Assembly: GCA_003223455.1 (NCBI GenBank)
Contig: QHVE01000047.1
Location: 1 to 41,171, forward strand
Origin: Gemmatimonadota bacterium
GTDB lineage: Bacteria > Gemmatimonadota > Gemmatimonadetes > Gemmatimonadales > Gemmatimonadaceae
Length of the DNA: 41,171 nt
Reading direction: 5' to 3'
Positions 3,632-33,522 of the stretch are shown here, piece after piece. The notes beneath the pieces are model-generated. The model was not told the DNA's origin, did no database searches, and saw nothing but the letters and a program-made list of their open reading frames with translations. The position numbers and the translations under genes are program-made. The stretch's first letter is position 1, and each line of letters starts with the position of its first letter.

Positions 3632-3765
3632 AAGAGGCATGTGCGCCAACGCACCGCCGGGGGCGCGATACGCGCGCATGATGTCGTCCGCTGGTTGCGT
3701 CGTCCGATGACGCGTCCGGTCGCAGCCCCCGCCCGCACGACCCATCTCTCGGCTCGACAGGCACT

Positions 3766-3787
3766 TTCGTTTCCCATTGAAAACGAA
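3766..3787. repeat. Inverted repeat TTCGTTT-N8-AAACGAA
   Basis: Perfect 7-bp arms separated by eight bases, AT-rich relative to its surroundings and located 210 bases before the riboswitch. It may be an operator or lie within the promoter. It has no U-rich tail, so it is a poor terminator candidate. Confidence 0.35.
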
Positions 3788-3997
3788 TGCTCCAGGCCGT
3801 TACGGGAGGCAGCACGGTTCGTCGTATGGGCGTCGGCAGCGTGCACGATCGCGTTGCAAACGGCAAGACATGCAGACGAAGTACGGCGAACGGGTACCGG
3901 TAGCGTTTGTCGATGCTTCGTGCAGTGCAATCATGAACTTCCGTCAACCGTCAGCATCACCCCGCACGCAGTAGCGTAGTCCACCGGCAGGATCGCT

Positions 3998-4016
3998 TTC
4001 CCTCCGCGCGAGGGAA
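3998..4016 (+). promoter_or_regulatory. Leader hairpin carrying an anti-Shine-Dalgarno sequence
   Basis: TTCCCTC (3998-4004) pairs perfectly with GAGGGAA (4010-4016) around a five-base loop, directly 5' of the c-di-GMP aptamer. The segment TTCCCTCC (3998-4005) is also perfectly complementary to the ribosome-binding site GGAGGGAA at 4116-4123. The hairpin and the RBS pairing are mutually exclusive, which makes this a candidate expression platform for the riboswitch. The pairing is read from the sequence; the switching role is inferred. Confidence 0.6.
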
Positions 4017-4104
4017 TCGCGACAAAGGCAAACCCGGCGAAAGCCGGCGACGCAAAGCTACGAGGCTACGGCGACCACGAGTCGCTATGCCAGTCGGGCC
4101 GCCG
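4015..4104 (+). promoter_or_regulatory. Cyclic-di-GMP-I (GEMM-I) riboswitch aptamer
   Basis: The core conserved blocks of GEMM-I appear in order. They are AAAGGCAAACC (4024-4034), a stem CCGGC-GAAA-GCCGG with the expected GNRA tetraloop, then GACGCAAAGC (4050-4059). Next come a second arm closed by GCGAC/GTCGC (4071-4085) and the 3' block TATGCCAGTCGGGCCGCC (4086-4103), matching the family's AUGxxAGCCGGGUUGCC. The element lies 12 bases before the Shine-Dalgarno of the lipoprotein gene at 4129. GEMM-I RNAs bind c-di-GMP and usually control motility, matrix or surface genes. Confidence 0.92.
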
Positions 4105-8718: not shown

Positions 8719-9968
8719 TAAGAGCTCAGTGACATGACGGAAGACGGCCGCTCGGGACGCGATGCGGCGGTGGAACAGCGTTCGGCGAACTGCTCGGCGA
8801 CCGAGGCCCAGCCGAAGTTGGTGCGAACGTGCATGGCGGCCGCACGGCCGATGTCGGCTGCGCGCTCCGGGGAGCGAAGCAGCCCGACCACCGCGTCGGC
8901 GAACGCGGCGGGGTCGTCGGCGAGGATGATGTGCTTGCCGTCCTGCACGTCCAGGCCTTCGGCGCCGATGGTCGTCGAGACCACGGCGCGCTCCATCCCC
9001 ATCGCCTCGTAGATCTTGATGCGCGTGCCGCCGCCGACCCGGAGCGGGACCACGACGACCGAAGCCGCCTCGAGGTAGGGCCGCACGTCCGCGACGGTGC
9101 CCGTGACCGTGACGCGCGGGCGTCCCTCGGCGAGCGCCTTCACGCGCGCCGTCGGGTTACGCCCCACGATCGTCAACGTCGCCTCGGGCTCCGCCCGCTC
9201 GATGCGTGGCAGGATCTCCTCCACGAACCAGTCCATCCCGTCCTCGTTCGGCATCCAGTCCATCGACCCCGTAAAGACGATCGATGCCGGCTTGCGCGAC
9301 ACGGTGCCCGATGGGCGGAAGAAGTCCGTGTCCACCCCCGTCGGGACCGACGACACGCGCTCGACGCCGTACGCCTGGCGGAACACCGCCGCATCCTCGG
9401 GCGAGACGGCCACCACATGGTCGAATCGCAGGCACTGCTCGCGCTCGACGCGCCGCATCCGCCGCCACTGCTCCCCCATGTAGAGCCGCATCACGGGATT
9501 GCGGGCCACGCGCGTGCGGCGCTCCCAGATCATCGCTTCGACGTTGTGCTGGAACAGGACCACGGGGCAGGGCAGCCCGTGCGGCACGTTGAGCGCCGGC
9601 ACGAGGAAGTCGCAGACGACGACGTCCGCGCGGTCGTCCCCGGTGGTGCAGCGCTCGCGGATCACCTGCATCATCGCCGCGGACCGATAGGGGGCCAGCG
9701 CGAACGGCAGCGACGAGAAGACATTGCGCACGATCGCCAGCGCGCGACGCCAGCCGCGCAGCGGGGCGCGGCGCCACGGCGCGAGCACGAGGTCGTCGCA
9801 GTATTCCTTCGCGCGTGCGCGCTGCTCGGGCGTGATCGTTCCATCGTCGAGCGCGACGTACGTGATCCGATGATGATCGCGCAGCCGTCGCAGCATCTCG
9901 TACGTTCGGATGCGGCCGCCCTTGTCGAGCGGGTGAAGAAGCTCGTTCTTGACCCAGAGGATGTGCAT
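8718..9968 (-). CDS. GT4 family glycosyltransferase
   Basis: 416 residues with the GT-B fold pattern. The N-terminal start HILWVKNELLHPLDKGGRIRTYEML contains the GG loop, and a FTGSMDWMPNEDG motif opens the C-terminal domain. Donor-binding GGGTRIKIYEAMGMERAVVST is present, followed by IGAEGLDV. The pattern resembles the glycosyltransferases associated with exosortase-type polysaccharide loci (TIGR03087-like), though no exosortase is in the window. It transfers a sugar from a nucleotide donor to a lipid-linked acceptor at the cytoplasmic face. Donor and linkage cannot be deduced. It sits 16 bases after the amidotransferase gene and overlaps algD by one base. Confidence 0.88.
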   Translation of the reverse strand: MHILWVKNELLHPLDKGGRIRTYEMLRRLRDHHRITYVALDDGTITPEQRARAKEYCDDLVLAPWRRAPLRGWRRALAIVRNVFSSLPFALAPYRSAAMMQVIRERCTTGDDRADVVVCDFLVPALNVPHGLPCPVVLFQHNVEAMIWERRTRVARNPVMRLYMGEQWRRMRRVEREQCLRFDHVVAVSPEDAAVFRQAYGVERVSSVPTGVDTDFFRPSGTVSRKPASIVFTGSMDWMPNEDGMDWFVEEILPRIERAEPEATLTIVGRNPTARVKALAEGRPRVTVTGTVADVRPYLEAASVVVVPLRVGGGTRIKIYEAMGMERAVVSTTIGAEGLDVQDGKHIILADDPAAFADAVVGLLRSPERAADIGRAAAMHVRTNFGWASVAEQFAERCSTAASRPERPSSVMSLSS

Positions 9969-19143: not shown

Positions 19144-20352
19144 TCACGACCCCATGAGGCCCCCGACCGACCGTAAGAGCCCGAAGCTGTGCTGGATGAA
19201 CCGCCGTGCAGCCGAGGTCTGCGCGTTCCGCATGCCGCCCGCTACCCGAACCCATTCCCGCGTGTCGAGCCACGGTCGGGACGCGCCATGTCCCTGGGCG
19301 CGTGGCTGGATGCCCAGGCTCCAGAGCGCGCGCGACAGCGACACCGAGTTCACGATCAGATCCGGGTTGGGCAGCGCGTGCTCGGCGAAATACCGCGTGA
19401 GCGAGCGCAGCACTCGGTTCGGGAGACGCGGGGCGAGCTGACCGAGCACCTCCGACGGAACGGCGACGCTGGCGAGATCCCGCGCCAGGCGCAGCGCCCA
19501 GTAGCAGCATGTGGCGCCGCGCGCCGCGCGCGCCTTGCGCACGAGTGTCGCCCAGTCGACCGGACCGGCCGCCAGGATGCGCTCGATGTCACGCAGGGTG
19601 CGGAACGCGCCGAACGTCATCTCGTGCGACCACGCGAAATGCAGCGCCGCGTGAAGCAGCTGGTCTTCCGGGCTGGGTACGTACGCGGGCTGGCCACCGA
19701 TCGTGATTCGGCGTGCGCTCTCCCACAGCTGCTCGGGGGGGAGACGGAACGGCGCCTGCAGCGTGAACAGCGCCGTGTGAAGTTCGAGCCCGATCTGCAG
19801 GCCGTCGGCATCCTCGAGCGGCGACAGGTGCTGATGGTCCGCATAGCTGCGCTCCTCCGCCACGTCGCCACGCCGCGTCCATCCATTGCCCAACGCCAGC
19901 TCCCACGCGCGCTGCGCCTTCTCCCCACGCACGAGCAGGTCGATGTCGCCCATGGGCCGCTCGGTCGGCCGCGCATACGCCGAGTGGGCGAGACCAGCCC
20001 CCTTCAACAGAAGCACATCGATGTCGTGGCCGGCATACAGCCCGAGCAGCTTGACCAACCGGTCGTGCAGCGACGAAAGCTGGAACTCCGACACGAGGGC
20101 GAGACGCTGCAGATTCGCCAGTTCCTCCGGGCGCGGACCGCGGAGCGGGGTTTGCGCCAGCTGCTCGCTCAGCGCGACGATCGCGCGCTCTCGTGCCGCG
20201 AGATGCATGAGACGCTCCCAGTCCACCGGACGGTCGAGCAGGCCACGCAGCGACTCCTGACCCGCCGGATTCGACGTCGCCAACGCGATCAGCGCCGACT
20301 CCGTGGGCAGCTGATCCAGCAGCCGCTCGGCGGTGGGATGCGCGTCGCTCAT
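19144..20352 (-). CDS. Nucleotidyltransferase-fold protein (PF14907-like)
   Basis: 402 residues. The central LLLKGAGLAHSAYARP segment followed by RPMGDIDLLV (residues 132-141) is the signature of the nucleotidyltransferase_5 family, with the GD-x-D pair that binds metal. Such proteins are repeatedly found in polysaccharide loci of the exosortase type. Their substrate is not known, so no reaction is assigned. The remainder is largely alpha-helical, with HFAWSHEMTFGAFRTLRDIERIL downstream. The start ATG 20352 overlaps the stop of the upstream asnB copy (ATGA). It is the last gene before the 352-base gap. Confidence 0.85.
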   Translation of the reverse strand: MSDAHPTAERLLDQLPTESALIALATSNPAGQESLRGLLDRPVDWERLMHLAARERAIVALSEQLAQTPLRGPRPEELANLQRLALVSEFQLSSLHDRLVKLLGLYAGHDIDVLLLKGAGLAHSAYARPTERPMGDIDLLVRGEKAQRAWELALGNGWTRRGDVAEERSYADHQHLSPLEDADGLQIGLELHTALFTLQAPFRLPPEQLWESARRITIGGQPAYVPSPEDQLLHAALHFAWSHEMTFGAFRTLRDIERILAAGPVDWATLVRKARAARGATCCYWALRLARDLASVAVPSEVLGQLAPRLPNRVLRSLTRYFAEHALPNPDLIVNSVSLSRALWSLGIQPRAQGHGASRPWLDTREWVRVAGGMRNAQTSAARRFIQHSFGLLRSVGGLMGS

Positions 20353-22274
20353 GCCGAGACCGTGTTGACGTTCGCCGTCGCCGCCGACTGCCGGACCGCC
20401 GGCGCCAGAGGCGATGCGTGCGCCAGTCGTCCTTCGGCGAGCGCGCCGAGCCAGATCTCGAGCGCGATGAGCCGCCACAGCAGATGGCTGTGGTCGCGGC
20501 GTGCCGAGCGATGCTCGAGAACGAGTCGGGCGACGGCGTCACGGTCGACGAACGGCGCGATGCGCGACTCCGGCTCCATGAGCGCGTCGAGTCGGTAGCG
20601 GAGATCCTCCCGGAACCATCGCGCGAGCGGCACGCCGAACCCGTGTTTCGGATGCGCCAGCACGCGCGGCGGGACCAGACCGTCGATCGCCTGGCGCAGC
20701 AGCCATTTCCCCACGCCGTTTCGTTGCTTCAGGCGACTCGGCATCGCCATCGCGAATTCCACGATGTGATGGTCGAGCAGCGGCACCCGCGCCTCGAGCG
20801 AGACCGCCATGCTCATCCGGTCGACCTTCGTCAGGATGTCGCCTGGCAGGTACGTCACCAGGTCCACCGCCGTCAGCTGGGCGAGCAGGTCGCGTCCCGC
20901 CACCGGAGAGAACGCTGCGGAGAGCAGTGCGTCCATCGGAGGGATGTCGCTCGCCAGTTGCGCGCTGAGCACTCCGCCTTCGCTCACGTCCGGCGGAACG
21001 GCGACGGTCGCCGCGTATCGACCCTGGAGCGTCCGCGTCATGTCGAGCATTCGGTTCCGGCCGCGCGTACCGTGCGGCAGGTGCGCGACGACGCGCGAGA
21101 GCGCCGTGCGTGCAAACCCGGGCAGCTCGCGCCGCGACAGCAGCTCCGCGTATCGGGTGTATCCGCCGAACAGCTCGTCGCCGCCGTCTCCCGAGAGCGC
21201 GACGGTCACGTGCTCGCGCGCCATCTGCGAGACGAGGAACGTCGGCAGTGCCGATGAATCGCCGAACGGCTCGTCGAAGCCGGTGATCACCGAGTCGACC
21301 AGGCTGTCCACGTCGGGGCGCACGATCAGCTCCGTGTGCTCGGTGCCGATCTCGCGCGCCACGAGTGCCGCGTGCGGCGCCTCGTTGTGCGACGCCTCCT
21401 CGAAGCCGATCGAGAACGTCTTCACGCGGCCCGGGACGAGTCGCGCCATCTGGGCGACGACGGCCGACGAGTCCGTCCCTCCCGAGAGAAACGCCCCGAG
21501 CGGCACGTCCGACTCGAGATGCAGCGCGACCGACTCCCGTAGGAGCGCGCGCAGCGACTCGATCGCTTCCTCGTCGCGCGTCTCGGTGCGCTCGGCTCGC
21601 AGCGGAGACCAGTACGCGTCGATGCGCGGTGCGCTCCCCGGCTCCCACGTCAGTCGGTGTCCCGGTGGCAGCTTCCGAACTCCATCGAAGATGCAGTGCG
21701 ACTCCGGCACGTACCCGAACGTCAGGTACTGCGCCACGGCCTGTGGGCACACCACGGCCGTGAACTCCGGCATTGCGATCAGCGAGCGCAGCTCCGAGGC
21801 GAACGCGAGACCGCCGGCGTGCTCCCAGACGTAGAGCGGCTTGATGCCGACCCGATCGCGCGCGATGAGCAGGCGACGGCGCCGCGTGTCCCACAGCGCG
21901 AACGCGAACATGCCGCGCAGCGCGTCGACGACGCCGTCTCCCAGGTCCTCGTACAGGTGCACGATCACTTCGGTGTCGCTCGACGTCGCCATCGTATGGC
22001 CGCGGGCGACGAGCTCCCGACGCAGCTGCCGGTGATTGTAGATCTCACCGTTGAACACGAGCTGGATCGTGCCGTCCTCGTTGCTCATCGGCTGCTGCCC
22101 GAGTGCGGGATCCATCACGCTGAGCCGACGCATCCCCAGCGCGATCTCCGACGCCAGATAGCGACCCTCCTCGTTGGGGCCACGATGGACGATCGCCGCA
22201 CACATCGCGCGCAGCGACGCCTGCCGCTCGCTCTCGGAGCCCGAGCCCGCCGCGAATCCCACGATGCCGCACAT
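20349..22274 (-). CDS. asnB: AsnB-type glutamine-dependent amidotransferase (second full copy)
   Basis: 641 residues with the complete two-domain plan: MCGIVGF with nucleophile Cys2, HRGPNEEG, FNGEIYNH, then LSGGTDSSA at 263-271, SGDGGDELFGGY and ARVPLLDHHIVEF. It is closer to the general AsnB type than the first copy (GDGGDELFGGY versus GEGSDETLAGY), so the two are paralogues, not a recent duplication. As for the other copy, the acceptor could be aspartate or a sugar acid. It starts six bases after the Wzy-like gene and overlaps the nucleotidyltransferase gene. Confidence 0.9.
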   Translation of the reverse strand: MCGIVGFAAGSGSESERQASLRAMCAAIVHRGPNEEGRYLASEIALGMRRLSVMDPALGQQPMSNEDGTIQLVFNGEIYNHRQLRRELVARGHTMATSSDTEVIVHLYEDLGDGVVDALRGMFAFALWDTRRRRLLIARDRVGIKPLYVWEHAGGLAFASELRSLIAMPEFTAVVCPQAVAQYLTFGYVPESHCIFDGVRKLPPGHRLTWEPGSAPRIDAYWSPLRAERTETRDEEAIESLRALLRESVALHLESDVPLGAFLSGGTDSSAVVAQMARLVPGRVKTFSIGFEEASHNEAPHAALVAREIGTEHTELIVRPDVDSLVDSVITGFDEPFGDSSALPTFLVSQMAREHVTVALSGDGGDELFGGYTRYAELLSRRELPGFARTALSRVVAHLPHGTRGRNRMLDMTRTLQGRYAATVAVPPDVSEGGVLSAQLASDIPPMDALLSAAFSPVAGRDLLAQLTAVDLVTYLPGDILTKVDRMSMAVSLEARVPLLDHHIVEFAMAMPSRLKQRNGVGKWLLRQAIDGLVPPRVLAHPKHGFGVPLARWFREDLRYRLDALMEPESRIAPFVDRDAVARLVLEHRSARRDHSHLLWRLIALEIWLGALAEGRLAHASPLAPAVRQSAATANVNTVSA

Positions 22275-22280
22275 ACGGCC

Positions 22281-23717
22281 TTACCTCGACACCGGAACGG
22301 CGGATCCGGCGTACGCGAGTTGGAATGCCTGCGCGCGCCGAGCGGCGCTGCTCACCGCGACCTCGCGTTTCATCATCTCGACCACGCACCACATGGTGAG
22401 GACGTGCAGTACGAGGAAGGAGACGTGGGCCAGTGAGCCGAAGATCGCCGCGATGAAGAACCCGACCGCGCCCACTTCCATGGCGTATACGGTTTGGGCC
22501 GTGAGTGGTCGCAGCTTCTTCAGCTTCCGTCGATTCGAATCGATCGCAATGAGCACCGCGAGGTAGGTCGACGCCCAGATGATGATCCCGACGAACCCCG
22601 TCTCGGCGGTCACGTTCAGGTAGGCGCTGTGCGTATCGCGCCGCCCGCGCGCCGTCGGGTTGAACTGCGGTCGCATCGCCATGAGCGCATGCTCGGGGGG
22701 ATACGCGCCGAGACCGACGCCGGTCACCGGGTTCTCGCGGATGAGCTGACGTGCCACCTTCCAGATCTCGTAGCGCTGCTCGGCTGATCCTTCTTCGTCC
22801 GCGGCGCCGACGTTTCCTGTGTCGTTGATCTTCTTCAGCGCGAAGACGCGGTCCAGAACGTTTTCCGGCGCGACGAAGATCAGGAGCGATGCCACGACCA
22901 CCGTGAGCCCGATCGCCCGACCGCGCTTCCGTTGGGCCCACAGCGCGAACATCAGGAACACCGCGAATCCGATGAACGCTCCGCGTGATTTCGTCAGCAG
23001 GATCAGCAGTGGCAGCGCGGCCATTCCCACGCGTGCGGCCGTCCGCACCGGTCCCTTCGCCTCGAGCGCGTTCACGCCGAACGCCATCGAGAGCTGAAGG
23101 ATGCAGAACGCCGCCAGGTCGTTCGGATTGTTGTAGACGTAGTTCCAGATCGCCCGTCCGGCGAGCTTTTCTCCGTACAGGTAATAGTTGAAGAACGAAC
23201 CGCGTACGGGGTACGCCGCGAAGCACGCCAGCCAGAACACGAGGAAGAAGCGCAGTTGCTCGCGCGTGCGCAGCGCGTTCGCGGCCACGAGCGCGATCAG
23301 CCAGAGCTTCACCATCTGATCGAGCTTGACGTACACGAGGTCGGGATAATTGCTCAGCGCGTACCCCATGATCGCCCAGAGCAGGAACACGCCGAGTCCC
23401 TTCAGCAGCCCCGGGACGCGGATCGGCTCCTTCATCGTCAGCAACCCGATCAGGGCGATGACGATGGAGATGTCGCCGATCTGCAGGCGATACGTCGTGT
23501 TGGCGAAGATGTACCCGAGGAAGCCGACGTACGTGAGCGTCCACTGCACGCCGCGCCACGGCCAGCGTTGCGCCGACGACTCCGGCGGGAGTGCGTCCAC
23601 CGACGTGCCCGTCGGAAGTGCGGTGACGGGCGCAGTCGCCGCGGACCGCGGGATGTGCGCCGGCCACAGACCGCCACCCCCGAGGCCCGCGCCGATCGGA
23701 CGGTTCGGCGTCGTCAT
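22281..23717 (-). CDS. O-antigen ligase / Wzy-like polymerase
   Basis: 478 residues from ATG 23717, which overlaps the upstream GT4 stop. An N-terminal cytosolic tail of about 55 residues precedes roughly ten hydrophobic helices. The conserved periplasmic loop of the Wzy_C family is visible: RQLIRENPVTGVGLGAYPP, then DTHSAYLNVTAETGFVG. These proteins polymerise or ligate undecaprenyl-linked glycans at the periplasmic face; XrtA-associated O-glycosylation ligases also have this loop. Which of the two it is cannot be settled, but it is the only polymerase candidate here, so I favour Wzy. No flippase gene was recognised beside it. Confidence 0.85.
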   Translation of the reverse strand: MTTPNRPIGAGLGGGGLWPAHIPRSAATAPVTALPTGTSVDALPPESSAQRWPWRGVQWTLTYVGFLGYIFANTTYRLQIGDISIVIALIGLLTMKEPIRVPGLLKGLGVFLLWAIMGYALSNYPDLVYVKLDQMVKLWLIALVAANALRTREQLRFFLVFWLACFAAYPVRGSFFNYYLYGEKLAGRAIWNYVYNNPNDLAAFCILQLSMAFGVNALEAKGPVRTAARVGMAALPLLILLTKSRGAFIGFAVFLMFALWAQRKRGRAIGLTVVVASLLIFVAPENVLDRVFALKKINDTGNVGAADEEGSAEQRYEIWKVARQLIRENPVTGVGLGAYPPEHALMAMRPQFNPTARGRRDTHSAYLNVTAETGFVGIIIWASTYLAVLIAIDSNRRKLKKLRPLTAQTVYAMEVGAVGFFIAAIFGSLAHVSFLVLHVLTMWCVVEMMKREVAVSSAARRAQAFQLAYAGSAVPVSR

Positions 23718-25045
23718 GCGACCGCGCGCCTCGCGAGCCGCGTATAGAGCGCCTCCACCTGCGCGATCACGGCGTCGGCACTGTAGCCGGCGCGCGCGGC
23801 CGCGCGGCCGGCGTTGCCCAGCTTCGTGCGCAGCGCTGGCTCGTTGTAGAGCCGAAGGATCGCTCCGGCCAGACGCGACGGATCGCCCGGACGGACCAGC
23901 AGCCCGGTCGTGCCCTCGTGCACCGCGTCCGGAGTGCCTCCCACGTCGGTGGCGACCACAGGCCGCGCGGCGGCCATCGCCTCGAGGACCGAGTTCGGAA
24001 ACGCCTCCGTCGTCGAGCACAGCACAGAGACGTCGAACAGACCGTGCAGGTTCGGCGGCTGCGTGCGCTCCCCAGCGAAATGGACGAGCTCACCAATGCC
24101 GAGCGTGTCCGCGAGCGCCCGCAGCGCCGACCGTTCCGGTCCGTCGCCGACGAGGACGCAGTGCAGGGCGGGGATCTGACCTCGCAGCGATGCGATCGCA
24201 CGAAGCAGCGTCCCGTGGTCCTTCACGGGTGACAGCCGAGCCACGATCCCGACGACGAACGCATCCTCCGGCACTCCAATCTCGTCGAGCATGCGACGGC
24301 GGTCGTCGGCCGTGATCGGCTCGAATGCTTCTGGGTCGAGGAAGTTCGGGATCGTCACGATCCGCGATGCCGGTATGCCCCCTTCGGACTCGACGAGCCG
24401 CGACACACTCGGGCTATTCCCCAGCACCCGGTGTGCGAAGCGGTACGCCACCCGATTGGCCCGAAGAATTCGCCCACGGAGGTGGGGCGAATACCACGAC
24501 CGTCGACTGGCGATCACTCCCGGCACACCGGCGAGCCGCGCGCACATCGTCCCGTAGACGCTCGTATACGCGTCGTGACTATGCACGATGTCCGCGCGCT
24601 CTCGGCGAAAGAGCTGGATCAGGCGGACCGCTTGTCGCATGGCCCGGATACCCAGAAGACTCGTCATGGGGAAGGTGTACACCGGAATGCCGGCTGCCTT
24701 GTATCGCGCCATCAGCGGCCCGCTGTCCCGGATGCAAACCACGGAGATCGTGAATCGCCGTCGGTCGAGACGCTCCGCCGTTCGAAGCGCGTTCAGCTCC
24801 GTACCGCCCACCTGCATGTTGTCTATGCAATACACGACCCGGATCGGGTCACCCGGCGCTGTGTGGGCCAAGCGTGCCTCATGGACGCGACGTTGTTCGA
24901 GATGGACGACTGACAGGGCCATACGCACCGACGGTCTGAGCCGCCGGCGCGAGGGAGCTGGCATGCGCCTCTGACGCAACTCCAGCGCCGCGATCTCCCG
25001 ATGAATCCGCCCCTCGAGCCCTCTAAAGTAGTACGACGTCTGCAT
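23714..25045 (-). CDS. GT4 family glycosyltransferase with basic N-terminal extension
   Basis: 443 residues if begun at ATG 25045. The GT-B domain proper starts only at residue 67 (PIRVVYCIDNMQVGGTELNALRTAERL), so ATG 24964 or 24922 are possible. No good ribosome-binding site separates them, and the 66-residue lead is Arg-rich. Later motifs are SRRSWYSPHLRGR, VGIVARLSPVKDHGTLL, LVGDGPERSAL and the donor-binding TTEAFPNSVLEAMAAARPVVATDVGGTPD. It resembles XrtA-associated GT4 enzymes (TIGR03088-like). It heads the long minus-strand gene run, just downstream of a CRP-like palindrome. Confidence 0.86.
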   Translation of the reverse strand: MQTSYYFRGLEGRIHREIAALELRQRRMPAPSRRRLRPSVRMALSVVHLEQRRVHEARLAHTAPGDPIRVVYCIDNMQVGGTELNALRTAERLDRRRFTISVVCIRDSGPLMARYKAAGIPVYTFPMTSLLGIRAMRQAVRLIQLFRRERADIVHSHDAYTSVYGTMCARLAGVPGVIASRRSWYSPHLRGRILRANRVAYRFAHRVLGNSPSVSRLVESEGGIPASRIVTIPNFLDPEAFEPITADDRRRMLDEIGVPEDAFVVGIVARLSPVKDHGTLLRAIASLRGQIPALHCVLVGDGPERSALRALADTLGIGELVHFAGERTQPPNLHGLFDVSVLCSTTEAFPNSVLEAMAAARPVVATDVGGTPDAVHEGTTGLLVRPGDPSRLAGAILRLYNEPALRTKLGNAGRAAARAGYSADAVIAQVEALYTRLARRAVA

Positions 25046-25458: not shown

Positions 25459-26367
25459 ATGAACCCCAATCCCTCATCCCGAGAGCTCAGTGTGATCGTC
25501 GGCAGTCTGGACGCCGCCGGAAGCTTGCGCGAGTGCCTCACCGCCCTCGCCGCCTCATGCGAGGGCATCGACGCCGAAATCCTCGTCGCCGATGCCTCGG
25601 CCGACGAATCGGTGCACGAGGCGCGCGCTGCCTTTCCCGAGCTGCGCGTCCTGTCGTTGCCGACCGGCACGCTCGTTCCGGCGCTCTGGGGTGCAGGACT
25701 GCGGGAGGCGAGAGGCAGGGTCGTCGCGTTCACGATCGGTCAATGCGTGGTCGAGCGTGGCTGGGCCCGCGCGCTCCTCGATGGCATCCGATCGGGCGCC
25801 GCTGGCGTCGGCGGCCGACTCGACGTTCGGCATGGAACGAAGGCGACGGGGCGCGCGACGTTTTACCTGCGATACTCGGCCTGGCTCTCGATGCCCGACG
25901 GACCCGTGCAGGAGATCGCGGGCGACAACGCGGCGTACGACCACGAGTCGCTTCGCGCCGTCCGCGACGCGAGCGCCGCTCCGTTCTGGGAAGTGGAGTC
26001 GCATGCCCGTCTGCGCGCGCTCGGTCGCACGCTGGTCGTTCACCCCGCCGCGACGGCGTGGTTCACCGACGACACGGCACTCGGCGTGATGGCGGCTCGT
26101 CGCTTCGCGCATGGACGCCACTCGGGATCGTTTCGGGTCAGGAGTGGCATTCGTACACGTTGGCAGATGGTGCTCGGCGCCCCACTCGTGCCGCTCGTCC
26201 TGCTGGCGCGCGTGGGGCGTCGTGTTCTCCGTGCACGCGGACACGTCCAGGGATTCGTGACGTCGCTGGGCGCGTTTCTTGTCCTCGCGTGCGCGTGGGC
26301 AGCGGGAGAGGCGGTTGGCGGGCTCACAGCAGGAGAAGACATGCGCGAGGCGCTGAGGTCGACATGA
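25459..26367 (+). CDS. GT2-like glycosyltransferase paralogue with degenerate acidic motif
   Basis: 302 residues from ATG 25459. The GT-A core opens LSVIVGSLDAAGSLRECLTAL. It ends with the two hydrophobic helices (VPLVLLARV and SLGAFLVLACAWAAGEAVGG) also seen in both halves of the next gene. Where those halves have the metal and donor motif TEDH or IEDH, this protein reads FTIGQC, so the acidic pair expected of a GT2 is missing. It may be a non-catalytic partner or a decayed copy. The rest (GDNAAYDHESL, WEVESHARLRALG) is well conserved. It overlaps the next gene by ATGA. Confidence 0.82.
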   Translation: MNPNPSSRELSVIVGSLDAAGSLRECLTALAASCEGIDAEILVADASADESVHEARAAFPELRVLSLPTGTLVPALWGAGLREARGRVVAFTIGQCVVERGWARALLDGIRSGAAGVGGRLDVRHGTKATGRATFYLRYSAWLSMPDGPVQEIAGDNAAYDHESLRAVRDASAAPFWEVESHARLRALGRTLVVHPAATAWFTDDTALGVMAARRFAHGRHSGSFRVRSGIRTRWQMVLGAPLVPLVLLARVGRRVLRARGHVQGFVTSLGAFLVLACAWAAGEAVGGLTAGEDMREALRST

Positions 26368-28142
26368 CAGTCACGAGTCCACGATCATCTGACGGTACGG
26401 GACGGCTGCAGTCGATCGCGGCGCCGCACGTGTCGGTCGTCGTCGCGTCGAACCGCTCGCGTGAGCTGCTCGATGACTGCCTCGCCGCGCTTCTCGACCA
26501 GTGCGAGCGCGCGCGCGCGGAGCTGATCGTCGCGCGCGACGATGACGACGAAGGGCTTGCGGCGATCGCCGATGCATATCCGAGCATCCGCCTGGTACCC
26601 GTGAAGCGGGGGGCGACGATTCCGGAGCTGCGCGGCGCCGGCATGCGCGCCGCCACGGGCGACATCGTCATGCTGACCGAGGATCACTGCGTGCCGGGTC
26701 CGCGTTGGGTCGAGGAGTTGTGCCTCGGCGTCGACAACGTCGCCGAGATCGCCGGTGGCGGAATGGACAACGCACAGCGCGAGCGGGCGGTGGACTGGGC
26801 GGCATACTTCTCGGAGTACGGCCTCTTCGCCACGACGCGGAGCGACACCGACGGGGCGATGCAGCTCACCGGTGCGAACGTGGCGTACCACCGATCCATC
26901 GTCGGCGACGTCGTGGCCTGGGCGAGCGCGGGTGAGTGGGAGAACGTGGCGCACGAACGGCTTCGCGCGCGCGGCAGCTCGTTGCGCTTCGTCGACTCCG
27001 CGCCCGTGTACCAGAACAAGACGTACGAGTTCTGGGACTTCTGCCGCGATCGCTACGAGCACGGACGCGACTATGCGCGGACGCGGCTCGTCGAGCAGGC
27101 GGGTGCGCGGCGATGGCTGCTCACGGCGGTCACGCCCCTGTTGCCGGTCGTCATCCTGACTCGCGTGGCGCGCGCCGCGGCACCGACGCGGTGGCGTGCG
27201 TTCCTCAAGGCGCTGCCGGTGACGCTCGCGTTCGTCACGGCGTGGTCGGTCGGCGAAGCGGTGGGCTACATCGTCGTGCCGGCCGTCAACACGCTCGGCG
27301 ACCTGGTCGGATGTCTCACCGCGCTCGAAGCCCAAACGGACGCCCAGCTCGAGGTTCTCGTCGTCGATCGGCTCGGGGACGAGGTGCGCATGGAGCTCGC
27401 GCACCGCTTTCCGCGGGCTCGAGTGATTCCCGTACCGCGCGACACGACGATTCCCCGCATGCGCGAGATCGCCTTCGGCACGGCGACGGGCACCGCCGTG
27501 GCGGTGATCGAGGATCACGTGATCGTGCCGCTTGGCTGGGCCCGCGCCTTACTGGATGCGCAGCGCGAGACGGGGGCGGTCGTCGGGGGCTCGATCGACA
27601 ACGCTGCGCGCTCGTCGGTCGTCGACTGGGCGGCCTTCCTCTGCGAGTACAGCCACTGCATCACGCCGCTGCCCGCCGGTCCCGCGAGCGGGCTGCCGGG
27701 AAACAACGTCATCTACGACCGCGCGCTGCTGCAGCGATACCGTGACACGATCGCTGCCGGCAAGTGGGAGAACCACCTGCACGACGCGATGCATCGTGAC
27801 GGTGTTCCCCTCGTGCTCCGCCCCGACATCGGCGTCGGACACAAAAAGCATTACACTGTGGGGGAGTATCTCTCGCAGAGGTTCCTGTACGCCCGCTCCT
27901 ACGCCGGAGCACGGGTGATGGGCATGTCTCTCGCGAAACGGCTGGTCTACGGAGCGGCCGCCTTCGCGCTGCCGCCGCTTCTCATGTATCGCACGGTGGA
28001 TCGCGTGCTCGCGAAACGCCGATATCGATGGCAGCTCCTCCTTTCCATCCCACTGCTCGTGCTGTTCATTGCCTCGTGGACCGCCGGTGAGATCGTGGGA
28101 TACTGGTTCGGCCCTTCGGATTCCTTGAGCCGCGTATGCTGA
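26364..28142 (+). CDS. Tandem GT2 glycosyltransferase: two GT2-membrane modules in one protein
   Basis: 592 residues. Module 1 (about 20-300) starts HVSVVVASNRSRELLDDCLAAL, has MLTEDHCVPGPRW and GANVAYHRS, and ends with helices and SVGEAVGY. Module 2 (about 303-592) follows at once with IVVPAVNTLGDLVGCLTALE, has VIEDHVIVPLGWA and GNNVIYDRA, and closes with IASWTAGEIVGYWFGPSDSLSRVC. Each module keeps its acidic ED pair, so both may be active, perhaps adding consecutive residues. Module 1 lacks the usual tail after GEAVGY and module 2 lacks its own start, so the gene looks like two neighbours joined by an in-frame deletion around 27270. It follows the 25459 paralogue, giving three related modules in a row. 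Confidence 0.85.
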   Translation: MTVTSPRSSDGTGRLQSIAAPHVSVVVASNRSRELLDDCLAALLDQCERARAELIVARDDDDEGLAAIADAYPSIRLVPVKRGATIPELRGAGMRAATGDIVMLTEDHCVPGPRWVEELCLGVDNVAEIAGGGMDNAQRERAVDWAAYFSEYGLFATTRSDTDGAMQLTGANVAYHRSIVGDVVAWASAGEWENVAHERLRARGSSLRFVDSAPVYQNKTYEFWDFCRDRYEHGRDYARTRLVEQAGARRWLLTAVTPLLPVVILTRVARAAAPTRWRAFLKALPVTLAFVTAWSVGEAVGYIVVPAVNTLGDLVGCLTALEAQTDAQLEVLVVDRLGDEVRMELAHRFPRARVIPVPRDTTIPRMREIAFGTATGTAVAVIEDHVIVPLGWARALLDAQRETGAVVGGSIDNAARSSVVDWAAFLCEYSHCITPLPAGPASGLPGNNVIYDRALLQRYRDTIAAGKWENHLHDAMHRDGVPLVLRPDIGVGHKKHYTVGEYLSQRFLYARSYAGARVMGMSLAKRLVYGAAAFALPPLLMYRTVDRVLAKRRYRWQLLLSIPLLVLFIASWTAGEIVGYWFGPSDSLSRVC

Positions 28143-28176
28143 TCCGTTCGCGCTCGACGACGAGGCAAGGGACGGC

Positions 28177-29406
28177 GTGAGCGCGGCCTTGCGGGTCGGC
28201 GTGGACGCTTCGTGTCTCGCCAATGGGCGCGGCTACGGACGTTTCACTCGCGAGCTGCTTGCCGCGCTCGTGGAGAGTGCCCGGGAGCACCAGTTCGTCC
28301 TGTTCGGCGATCACGCGTCGGTCGCTTCCGTCGACCTCGGTGCGCCGAACGTGGAAGTCGTTCACGTCGCGCAGAATGTCTCCCCCGCCCGCGCGGCCGC
28401 GGCGAATGGCTACCGCTCGCCGGCCGATATGCTCCGCCTCGGTCGCGCCGTGTGGCGAGACCGGCCGGACGTATTCTGGTCGCCATCCGTCTATACGTAT
28501 TTTCCGCTTCCACCCGGCCAGCCATCGCTGGTCACGATCCACGACGCGATCACGGAGCGCTTTCCCGAGCTGACGATGCCGACGTGGCGCGCGCGGTTCT
28601 TCTGGAAGGCGAAGGTGCGACTCGCGATCAGCCAGGCCACGCTCGTGCTCACGGTGTCGGACTTTGCCGCGCGCGAGATCGAGCAGGTGCTCGGCGTGTC
28701 GCGCGACCGCCTGCGCGTCGCGGGTGAAGCTGCGGCCCGAACCTTTCGGCCGAGCACGGAGCGCGAGTCGGCATCAGCGGCGCGCGCGGCGGGCGTGCCG
28801 GATGGGTCCCCATGGTTCACCTACGTGGGAGGCTTTACCCCACACAAGCACGTCGATCGCATCGTCCGAGCCCACGGCGTGCTCGTCGGCGAAGCGCTCG
28901 AGCGAGGAGTGCCGCTGCCGTACCTCGTCCTCGTGGGCACCACGAGCGCGGACAACTTCCACGGCGTCGGATCCGGAATCCATGAGGCCATCGCGCAGTG
29001 CGGCACCGAGGAGTTTGTTCGGTGGACGGGCTTCGTGCCGGACGAGGAGCTTCGCCATCTGCTGAGTGGAACGCGTGCACTGCTGCTGCCGTCGGCCAAC
29101 GAGGGCTTTGGCCTGCCTGCCGTCGAAGCCGCCGCGTGCGGAGCGCCGGTCGTTGCGACGACGGCGAGCCCTCTGCCCCAGCTATTGGAGGGGGGCGGCT
29201 ACTTCGTGGCGCCCGGCGATGTCGGCGCGCTCGTCGCGGCGATGCGGACGCTCCTCGACGATGGTGAGCGCGAGCGGTGTGGACGCATCGCGCTCGAACG
29301 CGCCGGCCGCCTCACCTGGCGCGCCAGCGCACGCGCCACGCTGTCCGCGATTCACGACGTCGTGGCGTTGGCTCGCCGCGAGGCGCCCATCCCGGCGGTC
29401 TCATGA
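28177..29406 (+). CDS. GT4 family glycosyltransferase (mannosyltransferase-like)
   Basis: 409 residues from GTG 28177, supported by an AGGGA ribosome-binding site five bases upstream. The N-terminal GVDASCLANGRGYGRFTRELL corresponds to the GxGRYTRxLL pattern of WbaZ/MtfB-like mannosyltransferases. VTIHDAITERFPE, TVSDFAAREIEQVLGV and VGGFTPHKHVDRIVRA follow. The donor site is PSANEGFGLPAVEAAACGAPVVAT. A mannosyl donor would fit the presence of algD, but this is inference. It is 34 bases after the tandem GT2 and its stop overlaps the next ATG. Confidence 0.88.
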   Translation: MSAALRVGVDASCLANGRGYGRFTRELLAALVESAREHQFVLFGDHASVASVDLGAPNVEVVHVAQNVSPARAAAANGYRSPADMLRLGRAVWRDRPDVFWSPSVYTYFPLPPGQPSLVTIHDAITERFPELTMPTWRARFFWKAKVRLAISQATLVLTVSDFAAREIEQVLGVSRDRLRVAGEAAARTFRPSTERESASAARAAGVPDGSPWFTYVGGFTPHKHVDRIVRAHGVLVGEALERGVPLPYLVLVGTTSADNFHGVGSGIHEAIAQCGTEEFVRWTGFVPDEELRHLLSGTRALLLPSANEGFGLPAVEAAACGAPVVATTASPLPQLLEGGGYFVAPGDVGALVAAMRTLLDDGERERCGRIALERAGRLTWRASARATLSAIHDVVALARREAPIPAVS

Positions 29407-30662
29407 CGGCGCTGCGCTTCTGCATGATCACGACCTTCTATCCGCCGCGGAGCTTCGGCGGCGATGCGGTGGCCGTGCAGTCGCTCGCCCGCGCGCTCGT
29501 GCGCCTCGGGCATCACGTCACAGTGGTCTGCGACGACGACGCATATCGCACGCTGTCCGGCGACCACACGCCCGCCCCCCCGGACAGTGATGACGGCGTC
29601 GTCGTCCATCGTCTGGTCAGTCGGCTCGGTGCGATCGCCGTCGGTCTCACGCAGCAGACGGGCCGGCCGATCGTGCACGGCAGTCTGCTGCGCCGCGTCC
29701 TCGAGCGCGGCAACTTCGACGTCATCCACTATCACAACCTGTCGCTCGTCGGGGGGCCCGTTGCACTGTCGTTCGGCCGGGCGGTCAAGTTGTACACGGC
29801 GCACGAGCATTGGCTCGTGTGCCCGACCCACGTGCTCTGGCGACATCACACGGAGCCCTGCCCGGCACGGCAGTGCACGCGGTGCCAGCTCAGCTACGCT
29901 CGTCCGCCACAGCTGTGGCGTCACACCGGATTGCTCGAGCGGGAGCTCGGTCATGTCGATGCGTTCATCGCGCTGAGCCAGTTCAGCCGCGACAAGCATC
30001 GGGAGTTCGGCTTTCCGCGCGACATGGAGGTGATCCCGGGCTTCATGCGCGACCCGGGACCGCCGCGCGAACACGCGTCCTCGCACGCCGATCGCCCGTA
30101 TTTCCTCTTCGTCGGGCGACTGGAGTCGATCAAGGGACTCGAGGATGTCGTGGACGCCTTTGCCGCGTTCGATGGCGCGGATCTCATCGTCGCGGGTGAG
30201 GGTACGGAGCGCACGGGTCTCGTGGCGCGCGCCGCTGGAAATCCTCGCGTACGCTTCGTCGGCTTCCAATCGGGAGCCGAGCTCTCTCGGCTCTACTCGG
30301 GTGCGCAGGCCGTGATCGCCAGCTCCCGGGGCTTCGAGACGTTCGGGCTGTCCGTGATCGAAGCGTTCAGCCGCGGCGTGCCGGTGATCGCTCGCCGCAT
30401 GGGCTCCTATCTCGAGCTCGTCGAGGGTTCGGGAGCAGGGGAGACGTTCGACGACGTCGAGGGACTGCAGGCGGCGATGCAGCGCATGCTCGCCGACACC
30501 ACTCGCCGAAGCGGGATGGGTGTCGCAGCGTATGCGCGCTTCCGGTCGATGTTCGATGAGGACGTCGTGGTGCCACGCTACCTCGCGCTCGTCGAACGGT
30601 TCCTGTCCCATCGCTCTCCGGCGCCGTCGTTGCCGGTGTCCGACACTGCGGTGCACGCATGA
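29403..30662 (+). CDS. GT4 family glycosyltransferase with cysteine cluster
   Basis: 419 residues from ATG 29403, which overlaps the previous stop (ATGA). The N-terminus MITTFYPPRSFGGDAVAVQSLARAL has the GG loop. A cysteine-rich segment (HWLVCPTHVLW, PCPARQCTRCQL) typical of one GT4 subgroup follows. The donor domain carries VGRLESIKGLEDVVDAFA, GEGTERTGL and the E-x7-E region SRGFETFGLSVIEAFSRGVPVIA. Substrate unknown. It is translationally coupled to the deacetylase that follows. Confidence 0.88.
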   Translation: MTALRFCMITTFYPPRSFGGDAVAVQSLARALVRLGHHVTVVCDDDAYRTLSGDHTPAPPDSDDGVVVHRLVSRLGAIAVGLTQQTGRPIVHGSLLRRVLERGNFDVIHYHNLSLVGGPVALSFGRAVKLYTAHEHWLVCPTHVLWRHHTEPCPARQCTRCQLSYARPPQLWRHTGLLERELGHVDAFIALSQFSRDKHREFGFPRDMEVIPGFMRDPGPPREHASSHADRPYFLFVGRLESIKGLEDVVDAFAAFDGADLIVAGEGTERTGLVARAAGNPRVRFVGFQSGAELSRLYSGAQAVIASSRGFETFGLSVIEAFSRGVPVIARRMGSYLELVEGSGAGETFDDVEGLQAAMQRMLADTTRRSGMGVAAYARFRSMFDEDVVVPRYLALVERFLSHRSPAPSLPVSDTAVHA

Positions 30663-31405
30663 AGGCGATCCTCACCTATCACTCGGTGGACGAGACGGGC
30701 TCGGTGATCTCGATCGACGAGCGCGCCTTCCGGCGCCACATCGAGTGGTTGGCGTCCGGATGCGTGCGCGTGCTGTCGCTCGACGCCCTCGCCACGGCAC
30801 CTGACGACGTCGATGCCGTCGCGATCACGTTCGACGACGGCGTGGAGAGCTTCGGACGGATTGCCGCGCCACTGCTCCGCGAGCACGGACTCCCCGTCAC
30901 GCTGTTCGTCGTTACGAGCGCGGTCGGCTCGACCAACCTCTGGCGGGGAAGCGGTGACCCGGGAATTCCGGTCTTTCCGCTGCTCGACTGGGACGAGCTC
31001 GGACGGCTGGCCGGCGAAGGAGTCGCCATCGGTGCACACACGTGCACGCACCCGAATCTTTCCGCCATGGATGGCGAGTCGGCCGAACGCGAGATCGTCG
31101 AGTCCCGAGCTCGTCTCGCGCGCGAGCTCGGTGTGGACGTGACCAGCTTCGCCTATCCGTACGGTGCCGTGAGTTCGGCCGCACGCGACGTGGTGGCGCG
31201 CGAGTTTCGCGTCGGCGTGACGACACGGTTCGCGACCCTCGCGCCGATCGACGATCGGGCGCGGCTGCCCCGGCTGGACAGCTACTACTTCCGTGGGCCG
31301 GGGACACTGGAGGCCTGGGGCAGCGCACGCTTCCGCGTTCGCATGGGGTTACTCGCGAGCGCGCGCTCGGTGCGCGGTTCGCTGAGCCGGAGTCTCGCCC
31401 GATGA
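30659..31405 (+). CDS. Small polysaccharide deacetylase (NodB domain)
   Basis: 248 residues, essentially a bare NodB domain. AILTYHSVDE starts the barrel, ITFDDGVESF (56-65) gives the catalytic Asp and metal Asp, and IGAHTCTHPNL contains the H-x3-H pair (His127, His131). FAYPYGAVSSAARD completes motif 3. It probably removes acetyl groups from a hexosamine in the repeat unit. There is no signal peptide, so it likely acts on lipid-linked intermediates in the cytoplasm. It differs clearly from the larger deacetylase at 15459-16631. Confidence 0.9.
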   Translation: MKAILTYHSVDETGSVISIDERAFRRHIEWLASGCVRVLSLDALATAPDDVDAVAITFDDGVESFGRIAAPLLREHGLPVTLFVVTSAVGSTNLWRGSGDPGIPVFPLLDWDELGRLAGEGVAIGAHTCTHPNLSAMDGESAEREIVESRARLARELGVDVTSFAYPYGAVSSAARDVVAREFRVGVTTRFATLAPIDDRARLPRLDSYYFRGPGTLEAWGSARFRVRMGLLASARSVRGSLSRSLAR

Positions 31406-32541
31406 CGCCCGACCATCCGTTTCTCTCGGTGATCGTTCCCGTCAAGGACGGGCACAACGTGCTGCCCCAAATGCTGGAGCACCTGAGCCGCAGCGAGCTG
31501 CCCCGCGAGACGTGGGAGCTGATTGTTGTCGATGATGGGAGCACGGACGATTCGGTCGCCATCGCGAGCGCCCATGCCGACCTCGTGATCCGCCTGCCCG
31601 GACGCTCGCACGGGCCGGGCTACGCGCGTAATCGCGGCGTCGAGCGCGCACGCGGTGAGTGCATCGTGTTCCTCGACGCCGACGTCATCGTGCGCCCCGA
31701 CACGCTGACGCGCCTCGCCGAAACGATGATGACGCGGAGTGACGTCGACGCCGTATTCGGCGCCTACTGCGACGAGCCGGCGGCCGCAGGCGTCGTCTCG
31801 AAGTACCGCAACTTGCTCCACCACTACACGCATGCGCAGGAGCCTGGCGAGGCACAGACGTTCTGGGCCGGCTGCGGCAGTGTCCGTCGCGCCGTCTTCG
31901 TCGCCGTGGGCATGTACGACGAATGGCGCTTCTCGCGCCCGCAGATCGAGGACGTCGAGCTGGGCTACCGACTGTCGGCGCACGGGTATCGCATCCTCCT
32001 GCAGCCCGAGATCCAGGTCACGCATCTGAAGCGGTGGACCTTCCACGGCATGTTGATGGCGGACTTCATGGATCGCGGCGTGCCCTGGGCACGGCTCCTC
32101 GCCGAGCAACGCGCCTTGCTCGGCCCCGCAGCATCGAAGGCGAAGAGTCTCAGCCTCCGCGCCAAGGAGAAGAGCAACACGTTCTTCGTCTGCCTCGGTC
32201 TGGTGCTGCTCGCCTCGTCCGTGCCGAACAAGAACCACCTGCTGTCGTCCCTCGGCGGACTGTGTCTCGTGCTCGTCGTACTGCGCGCGTGGCCGCTCTA
32301 CGCGTTCTTCTTCCGCAAGCGCGGGCTGGCGTTCGCGATCTGCGGTGTGGTGCTGCACATGATCTACTATCTCACTGCGGCGGTCTCGGTCGCGTGGGGC
32401 GCCTTCCTCGCCGTCGTCGTGGGCGAGCCTCGTCCGGACGCGACGGTCGAAGCGTTCTCCGAGCTGAATCTGGCGTCGTGGCCTCCCGTCCCGCGCAACC
32501 CGAGCAAGCCCGCGCCGAAGCCGAGCCCCGCGAAGCGGTGA
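31402..32541 (+). CDS. GT2 family glycosyltransferase with C-terminal membrane helices
   Basis: 379 residues from ATG 31402 (ATGA overlap with the deacetylase). The GT-A domain is canonical: LSVIVPVKDG (8-17), VVDDGSTDDS, the donor-binding FLDADVIV (90-97) and catalytic QIEDVELGYRLSAHG (181-195). Three or so hydrophobic segments follow (around 235-345), then a Pro/Lys-rich tail (PSKPAPKPSPAKR). It transfers a sugar from a nucleotide donor to a membrane-bound acceptor. The specificity is not readable. Its stop overlaps the next GTG. Confidence 0.88.
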   Translation: MTPDHPFLSVIVPVKDGHNVLPQMLEHLSRSELPRETWELIVVDDGSTDDSVAIASAHADLVIRLPGRSHGPGYARNRGVERARGECIVFLDADVIVRPDTLTRLAETMMTRSDVDAVFGAYCDEPAAAGVVSKYRNLLHHYTHAQEPGEAQTFWAGCGSVRRAVFVAVGMYDEWRFSRPQIEDVELGYRLSAHGYRILLQPEIQVTHLKRWTFHGMLMADFMDRGVPWARLLAEQRALLGPAASKAKSLSLRAKEKSNTFFVCLGLVLLASSVPNKNHLLSSLGGLCLVLVVLRAWPLYAFFFRKRGLAFAICGVVLHMIYYLTAAVSVAWGAFLAVVVGEPRPDATVEAFSELNLASWPPVPRNPSKPAPKPSPAKR

Positions 32542-33522
32542 GCGGCGACGCGCGGCCGCCGTTCGTGTGTCCCGCGTGTCGCGCCGCGCTCGATCATCAC
32601 GCCGGGACGGAAGAGACTTATCGCTGCGTGGCGTGTGCGCGCGTGTATCCCGTCGTGATCGGCATTCCGGACTTCCGCCTGCGTCCCGATCCCTGGATCG
32701 GCCTCGAGGCGGACCGCGAGAAGGGAATGGCGCTCGAGGCGGAGACGCTCGACGCGGATTTCGAGTCGACCGTGCGCGCGTACTGGGCGCGCACGCCGGA
32801 CACGCCGCGCGCGCAGGCCGAGCACTTCACGGAGTACGTCGTGTCCCGGCGAGCCGCCGGGAGGTTGGTGGCTCGACGTCGGCTGTGGGACCGCCGACCT
32901 CGTGCTCGCGGGAGCCCGACGCGGACAACGGATGATCGGCATCGACATCGCGTTCCGGTGGCTCGTCGTGGCGCGTCGGCGTCTGCAGCGCGCGGGGGTG
33001 AGCGCTCCACTGGTGTGCTGCAACGGCGAGCATCTCCCCTTTCGCGATCGGACCTTCCGGCGCGTCGTCTCCCTCGGCACGCTGGAGCACAGCCTCGACG
33101 CCGACGCACTCGTCTCGGACGCGGCGCGTGTCCTCGAGCCGAACGGTCGACTGCACGTGCGCACCGTGAATCGCTTCTCGTTGCTTGCCGAGCCGCACGT
33201 CGGCGTGTGGGGCGTCGGCTTCCTCCCACGGCGCTGGGCGAATGCCTACGTCAACTGGCGTTCGGGGCAGTGCTACGAGCATCACCGGCCGCTTTCCGCC
33301 CGCGAGATCCGACGTGCCGCCCGTGCGTCCGGTCTGCGCGACGTGCGTGTCGACGCCGCCTCGCTGCTCTCCGCCGACCGCAAACGACTCGGAAGGCTTG
33401 CCGCCGTCGCGCCCGCCTATGACATCGCACGCCGTACGCCGGCAATCGGACGTGTGGTGAGTTGGGCTGCGCCGCTTCTGGATCTCGAGGCCACGCGGCC
33501 GGTCGCCTCCGACACGCCGTAG
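32538..33522 (+). pseudogene. Trm112-like zinc ribbon + class I SAM methyltransferase, frameshifted
   Basis: GTG 32538 overlaps the GT2 stop (GTGA). The first frame encodes a Trm112-like ribbon (FVCPACRAAL, YRCVACARVYPVVIGIPDFR) and a linker ending at HFTEYV. The SAM-binding part continues in a different frame: PGEPPGGWWLDVGCGTADL, GIDIAFRWLVVARRRL, then FRRVVSLGTLEHS and a long C-terminal half ending at 33522. The break is near 32838-32848. A single extra base (or two missing) restores one reading frame. Intact homologues would methylate a sugar or carboxyl group in such loci. It is either a true pseudogene or a sequencing error, and conservation on both sides favours a recent or artefactual lesion. 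Confidence 0.75.

Follow-up and report, generated by a model that had tools for sequence, protein, structure and literature searches.

A recurrent block of three membrane GT2 modules, the first with an altered metal motif, in a Gemmatimonadota exopolysaccharide cluster

Glycosyltransferases (GTs) of the GT-A fold that lack the DXD motif have precedents: as excerpted, PMC7185993 describes families GT14 and prokaryotic GT6 as metal-independent, with GT14 using basic side chains, and the GT31 member COSMC (C1GALT1C1) as having lost both DXD and xED and become a non-catalytic chaperone. Here we consider a bacterial locus with likenesses to both. The window, that is, the whole stretch of 41,171 nucleotides of contig QHVE01000047.1 (assembly GCA_003223455.1) from a Gemmatimonadota bacterium, carries three consecutive membrane GT2 modules, M1, M2 and M3, the last two joined in a single open reading frame (ORF), within an exopolysaccharide (EPS) gene cluster. 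Our preferred, if tentative, reading, which we hold to have a little less than an even chance of being right, is that M2 and M3 would be two ordinary GTs standing beside a rewired M1 that would be either metal-independent or a partner; activity, metal use and partnership are all deduced from the sequences.

The feature that sets M1 apart lies at the position of the E-D-H triplet of M2 and M3 (E-D-N in part of the M2 set), which was mapped by alignment and which we take as the equivalent of DXD. Sequences were placed in the M1 set according to how they scored against an M1 profile, and the same set also stands as a clade in the tree described below. The first residue of the motif is acidic in all 11 informative M2 sequences, in all 39 M3 sequences and in all 25 other modules (23 Glu, 2 Asp), as against 0 of the 16 informative M1 sequences, where it is Thr, Ser, Leu or Ile; the middle Asp has likewise been lost in 16/16. 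At the xED site the window M1 reads W-E-V, and the catalytic aspartate is absent. What could such a protein do? As a rewired GT2, M1 would have kept its ability to bind a sugar nucleotide or a lipid-linked sugar, and two options, which we consider about equally probable, present themselves. It might work with a changed metal site or metal-free, the gained arginine (Table 1) perhaps neutralising the diphosphate, or it might be a non-catalytic partner of M2 and M3.

The three modules are clearly related. The ORFs of the original prediction, at 25459-26367 and 26364-28142, hold, as does the fusion of two modules in this sequence; the fused frame runs from ATG to stop over 592 residues and overlaps the M1 ORF by 4 nucleotides. 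All three score above the curated cut-off of 23.3 bits for the Pfam family Glycos_transf_2 (PF00535; M1 34.1, M2 54.7, M3 32.7), and pairwise BLASTP gives E values of 8e-37 (M2/M3), 5e-31 (M1/M2) and 7e-33 (M1/M3), with 32% identity in each pair along some 280 residues, a likeness that, as aligned, is far beyond chance. When the organism's own genome (4.96 megabases in 127 contigs, 96% complete, the window lying on contig 5) was searched with the fused protein (E <= 1e-10, 14 candidates scored), the matches were the protein itself and M1, with no others. AlphaFold models, of the kind that had been suggested for each module, show a GT-A core followed by long C-terminal helices both for M1 (predicted local distance difference, pLDDT, 93.2; predicted template modelling score, pTM, 0.90) and for M3 with the M2 tail (pLDDT 90.0, pTM 0.81); for M2 the same fold is predicted by homology. 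The layout said to be common to the three modules therefore stands as regards core, helices and homology, except that M1 ends in GEAVGG rather than in the GExVGY ascribed to all three. Nor is the GExxG motif peculiar to M1-M3: across 94 aligned modules, 26 of them other relatives, its residues are G in 94, E in 91 and G in 94. The PDB matches listed for the two models are GT-A enzymes. The best Foldseek matches, once structurally aligned, were for M3 WrtF (Z 21.1, root-mean-square deviation, rmsd, 4.3, 208 residues aligned) and hyaluronan synthase (Z 20.9, rmsd 3.9, 271 aligned), and for M1 WrtF (Z 21.6, rmsd 2.5, 178 aligned) and K4 chondroitin polymerase (Z 20.8, rmsd 3.1, 199 aligned). TarP was a further structural match of the modelled modules; sequence searches of the PDB gave only weak matches to the N-terminal lobe. 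An identity with MftF (TIGR03965) was rejected, the three modules scoring 39.6, 34.6 and 27.2 bits against a curated cut-off of 280, and HpnB, CruG and the further NCBIfam families listed scored far under their cut-offs.

Did the three arise by tandem triplication and divergence, as had been suggested? A tree was built from 79 modules over 306 columns, 30 of the 109 modules at hand being omitted (duplicates, fragments, distant GT2s, two M1 sequences, one of them a fragment, and thinned M3 sequences). It contains three clades, M1 (support 99/94, 15 rows), M2 (100/100, 11 rows) and M3 (100/99, 23 rows), which, rather than falling among unrelated GT2 clades, share a wider membrane-GT2 clade with the 25 other modules and one row of the 'canonical' set, apart from four other GT2 rows (100/99); the tree carries a long-branch warning where these four outgroup rows join, which makes the limits of the wider clade less certain than the three module clades inside it. 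The branching order among the three and the 25 other modules is left unresolved by this tree. When M1, M2 and M3 were constrained together, the likelihood was 2.9 log units worse (approximately unbiased test, AU, p 0.43); constraining M2 with M3 gave a value 4.0 log units better than the free search (AU p 0.59), and M1 with M3 one 2.8 log units worse (AU p 0.19). Homology of the three thus stands, and an exclusive triplication is neither shown nor rejected. A recent tandem triplication in this lineage was rejected, since each module clusters with its counterparts from other genomes; any duplication is, on this tree, older than the genomes carrying the block.

How widespread is the arrangement? 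Short patterns drawn from an M3 alignment and run against 84,980 species genomes returned 32 loci, a lower bound; these lie in Gemmatimonadota and in records bearing the labels Alphaproteobacteria, Deltaproteobacteria, Phycisphaerae, Vicinamibacteria and others, although labels on short contigs (e.g. locus L051) may be wrong. The survey proposed for the three-module block found it in seven genomes besides the window: M1-M2-M3 stand in the same order and orientation in the window, L034, L051 (where M1 is cut by the contig end), L053, L055, L062, L073 and L074. M2-M3 occur without M1 in L056, L063 and also L046, whose contig starts inside M2, and M1 lies immediately before M3 in L061 and L112. 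Within the phylum, M1 was found in at least 9 of 298 genomes (above 240 bits) and M2 in at least 8 of 395, with only five to seven candidates scored in the genomes listed and the M2 match of genome G034 set aside as M3. Genomes present under two names were counted once (L053 = L035 = G049, L055 = G166, L062 = G185, L070 = G145, L071 = G115, L073 = G364, L056 = G170). Among 72,556 plasmid records no M3 match was found at E 1e-20. Orthologues of M3 in two Ruegeria records (L047 and L064, at 60% and 49% identity) might offer a cultivable system. In the open-licence literature of PubMed Central (PMC) we recognised no description of the M1-M2-M3 block, which does not by itself show its absence from print.

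Several observations weigh against two ordinary GTs with a rewired M1. The third motif position is often kept in M1, being His in 8, Glu in 4, Asp in 1, Gln in 2 (including the window) and Asn in 1 of the 16 informative sequences, and because it is His, Glu or Asp in 13/16, M1 may still bind a metal. The M1 set is also the more divergent: 50 of the 69 columns that are 90% conserved in M3 vary in M1. On the side of the supposedly ordinary enzymes, the xED aspartate is replaced by Asn in 35/39 M3 and 8/12 M2 sequences (the window M2 and M3 both read W-E-N, the aspartate absent), and the C-terminal histidine has become Gln in 11/12 M2; inverting families without the xED aspartate do exist, according to the part of PMC7185993 that treats them. 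Finally, neither M2 nor M3 adjoins the M1 of L109, of L110 and of the short contigs L111 and L114, and in L060, L067 and L075 M1 stands apart from M3, on the opposite strand.

Could all three, then, simply be independent GT2 enzymes making one linkage each, with the run of genes reflecting the length of the repeat unit and M1 holding its metal through the third position or other ligands? This is possible, though we doubt it. Runs of GT2 genes are known elsewhere, as with prmK, prmL and prmM of a Sphingomonas EPS cluster (in the excerpted account of PMC11340318), and three other adjacent GT2 modules, none of them M1, M2 or M3, lie at L121:8723-11696 (minus strand) in genome G124, so that tandem runs of such modules recur; the frequent His, Glu or Asp at the third position fits this alternative too. 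Set against it are the first two motif residues, which every informative M1 has lost while all other relatives read carry an acidic first residue, and the three further fixed substitutions that accompany this loss (Table 1). To find three GT2 genes side by side in an EPS cluster is ordinary enough, and it is the uniform loss within an M1 family that stays intact that is less ordinary. Our confidence in a rewired M1 beside two ordinary GTs is nevertheless lowered, because the third motif position is so often kept and because a second short deletion occurs in the window (see below).

Alternatively, M1 might be a functionless relic on its way out. The columns that vary in M1 would fit this, as would its rate, the fastest of the three in both comparisons that cover all three modules: ratios of non-synonymous to synonymous substitution (dN/dS) are 0.44 for M1, 0.21 for M2 and 0.20 for M3 between the window and L074, and 0.25, 0.17 and 0.14 between L055 and L073, in both cases with dS of 1.2-2.0, near saturation. 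At low dS, however, in one pair of proteobacterial genomes, the ratio is 0.21 for M1 and 0.14 for M3; the M1 frames are open, and the complete predicted fold is confident. Moreover, of the same 69 columns, 14 keep the M3 residue in M1 (including W-E, H, R and the GE..G motif) and 5 are fixed to another residue, and a further 9 are conserved in M1 alone. A stop is listed in 2 of 9 M1 matches (G153 and G235), but the ORFs concerned extend to position 293 of the 302 in the model, probably the natural end. As judged from these alignments, M1 is both looser than M3 and newly fixed at a few positions; it is under purifying selection with its predicted fold kept, and a relic is very improbable.

The fusion of M2 with M3 calls for separate consideration. 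In nine relatives measured, 43-68 nucleotides separate the M2 GY from the first-strand motif of M3 and the two genes lie in different frames; in the window they share a frame (Table 1), and this is the only fused pair among 11 M2-M3 pairs. According to the model, the first strand of M3 (GYIVVPA, residues 53-59 by count) spans the junction and borrows the GY of M2. A short deletion would thus have merged M2 and M3, in this sequence, into one chain with two active sites. Is the merger real? A conserved methyltransferase-like gene 5.6 kilobases downstream (32565-33510) is matched by relatives L034, L035, L055 and L073 in two frames, 14 to 19 of the relatives' residues being missing or unmatched at the frame change (around 32831-32868), and may be either a pseudogene or the product of faulty assembly. 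Short deletions, whether genuine or spurious, are hence not rare in the window, which raises the standing of the explanation that the fusion was created in assembly and that M2 and M3 are separate genes in the organism, as do the single fused pair and the assembly in 127 contigs. Nevertheless, the junction is clean, the frame is kept through it and the model has a complete first strand of M3 running across, and on balance we regard an artefact as unlikely, if by no means negligible.

At some loci a different kind of gene precedes M3. Genes of about 190 codons stand directly before it in L036, L050 and L119 and match only the N-terminal nucleotide-binding lobe of M2; weaker ones lie at L070 and L071, half sequences in L038 and L042 are not directly before M3 on the stretches read, and a short ORF before M3 in L069, under threshold and uncounted, is maybe a further half module. 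With a dN/dS of 0.30 between L036 and L050, compared with 0.11 for M3, the half module is apparently maintained. In a tree of the N-terminal lobe, 6 of 7 half sequences group with M2 (98/97), those of L070 and L071 on long branches and with the bootstrap unsettled; placing all seven with M2 was not rejected (p 0.22). Such genes bring up an enzyme-pseudoenzyme system, in which a catalytic M3 would be paired with a partner derived from GT2 but no longer a normal one, the charge-swapped M1 or, in some clusters without the triplet, the half-length derivative of M2, and such partners would serve M3 as scaffolds, regulate it or pass substrate on to it. Directly upstream of M3, however, a full M1 or M2 was found at 13 of 40 loci (one cut by the contig start) and a half module at 3 to 5 of 40, and the remaining loci, including most proteobacterial ones, have neither, a few of them starting at a contig end. 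That M1, M2 or a half module occurs at only a minority of M3 loci speaks against a strict partner rule, and we consider such a system rather improbable.

The block sits in a Wzy-type EPS cluster, whose genes encode an initiating sugar-phosphate transferase (Bac_transf), an SLBB/export protein, a chain-length/kinase protein, a Wzy_C protein and GT4 and GT2 enzymes, together with polysaccharide deacetylases, asparagine-synthase-like amidotransferases, a heparinase-like lyase, an epimerase, a UDP-sugar dehydrogenase and two Gfo/Idh oxidoreductases. In L034, L036, L050, L055, L070 and L073, M3 is followed by an amine-oxidase-type flavin adenine dinucleotide (FAD) protein, two GT4 genes, a deacetylase and a GT2; the window keeps this order without the FAD protein (gap 28142-28177), and a relative of the FAD-dependent oxidoreductase lies on another contig (G000:C34:38144-39391; 49% identity over the matched part). 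The amidotransferase and O-antigen-ligase-like genes at 20349-22274 and 22281-23723 resemble XrtA/PEP-CTERM families under cut-off, the amidotransferase scoring 597 against a cut-off of 817. An XrtA/exosortase EPS system was rejected, as no exosortase (PF09721) match was found at E <= 0.001 in the own genome, whose 96% completeness does not wholly exclude one. At the cluster end in some relatives, two short ORFs with hydrophobic glycine-rich stretches recur (c20 and c31, L073:15203-15956), with no Pfam match.

Table 1. Positions of the modules, motifs, junction, following genes and half modules (window coordinates unless a locus is named)
Feature	Coordinates	Strand	Remarks
M1	25459..26367	+	membrane GT2 module, 302 residues, ATG at 25459, stop at 26367; I93-G94-Q95 where M2 and M3 have E-D-H
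M1 Trp77	25687..25689	+	Arg in M2 and M3 (TIPxxR); Trp in 16/16 informative M1
M1 residues 93-95, I-G-Q	25735..25743	+	at the place of the E-D-H motif
M1 Arg138	25870..25872	+	Glu/Asp in M2, M3 and most other relatives; Arg in 17/17 M1
M1 Asp156	25924..25926	+	Ala in M2, Asn in M3; Asp in 17/17 M1
M2	26364..27269	+	membrane GT2 module, N-terminal half of the fused ORF; 4-nucleotide overlap with the M1 stop
M2 E106-D107-H108	26679..26687	+	taken as DXD equivalent
Fusion junction GEAVGY|IVVPAVN	27255..27290	+	3 nucleotides between M2 GY and M3 VVPAVN
M3	27270..28142	+	membrane GT2 module, C-terminal half of the fused ORF; most conserved of the three
M3 E383-D384-H385 (fused-protein numbering)	27510..27518	+	taken as DXD equivalent
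GT4a, GT4 glycosyltransferase	28177..29406	+	comes after the block in several relatives
GT4b, second GT4 glycosyltransferase	29403..30662	+	
Polysaccharide deacetylase	30659..31405	+	
GT2 of another kind	31402..32541	+	EpsD-/MftF-like scores under cut-offs; outside the M1-M3 clade in the tree
Half modules	L036:2406-2993, L050:9383-9976, L119:6272-6844		directly upstream of M3
Weaker half modules	L070 ~3756-4058, L071 ~9290-9580		about 29 bits

How might such a set work? M1, M2 and M3 would be GT2 paralogues of long standing that share an EPS operon, each made of a GT-A domain and C-terminal helices that would resemble a membrane hairpin. M2 and M3 would most probably attach sugars one after another to a polyprenyl-linked repeat unit at the cytosolic face, in a presumed order and from presumed substrates, and would act beside the downstream GT4, deacetylase and GT2 enzymes; that successive linkages of one repeat unit are built here, as had been suggested for the whole group, is plausible for these two modules. 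The significance of M1 lies in the fact that sequence alone usually suffices for a GT2 protein to be annotated as an enzyme, so that an M1 family standing beside intact paralogues would provide a clean test for pseudo-glycosyltransferases, or for altered metal use, in bacterial polysaccharide assembly. If the proposal is true, the number of linkages predicted from the count of GT genes in such clusters would change.

Comparison with the described systems brings out both sides. Like COSMC, as portrayed in the excerpted PMC7185993, M1 is a GT-A paralogue without DXD and the xED aspartate beside intact relatives (I-G-Q and W-E-V in the window); it differs in being a bacterial GT2 with C-terminal helices, most of whose orthologues keep His, Glu or Asp at the third motif position. 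With the metal-independent GT14 and prokaryotic GT6 enzymes, known from the same excerpt, it shares the loss of DXD in a GT-A fold, and a basic side chain is fixed in M1, but the families are others and the role of Arg138 is putative. The genes prmK, prmL and prmM of Sphingomonas sp. LM7, likened here by description rather than by sequence, are likewise three GT2 genes lying side by side, in a cluster that also holds Wzx and Wzy genes; unlike the present block, they come with no mention of a member with an altered metal site in the portion of PMC11340318 describing them. Several catalytic modules per chain are found as well in the multimodule GTs of Klebsiella pneumoniae O4/O7 (PMC11231755, in excerpt) and in the K4 chondroitin polymerase of Escherichia coli (2z86/2z87, a structural match), whereas here each module would have C-terminal helices of its own and the fusion is confined to one genome. 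Hyaluronan synthase, lastly, has a GT-A domain and membrane helices that align with M3, at an identity of about 9%; M1-M3, however, have two long C-terminal helices per module, and the likeness is one of structure, not of processive polymerisation.

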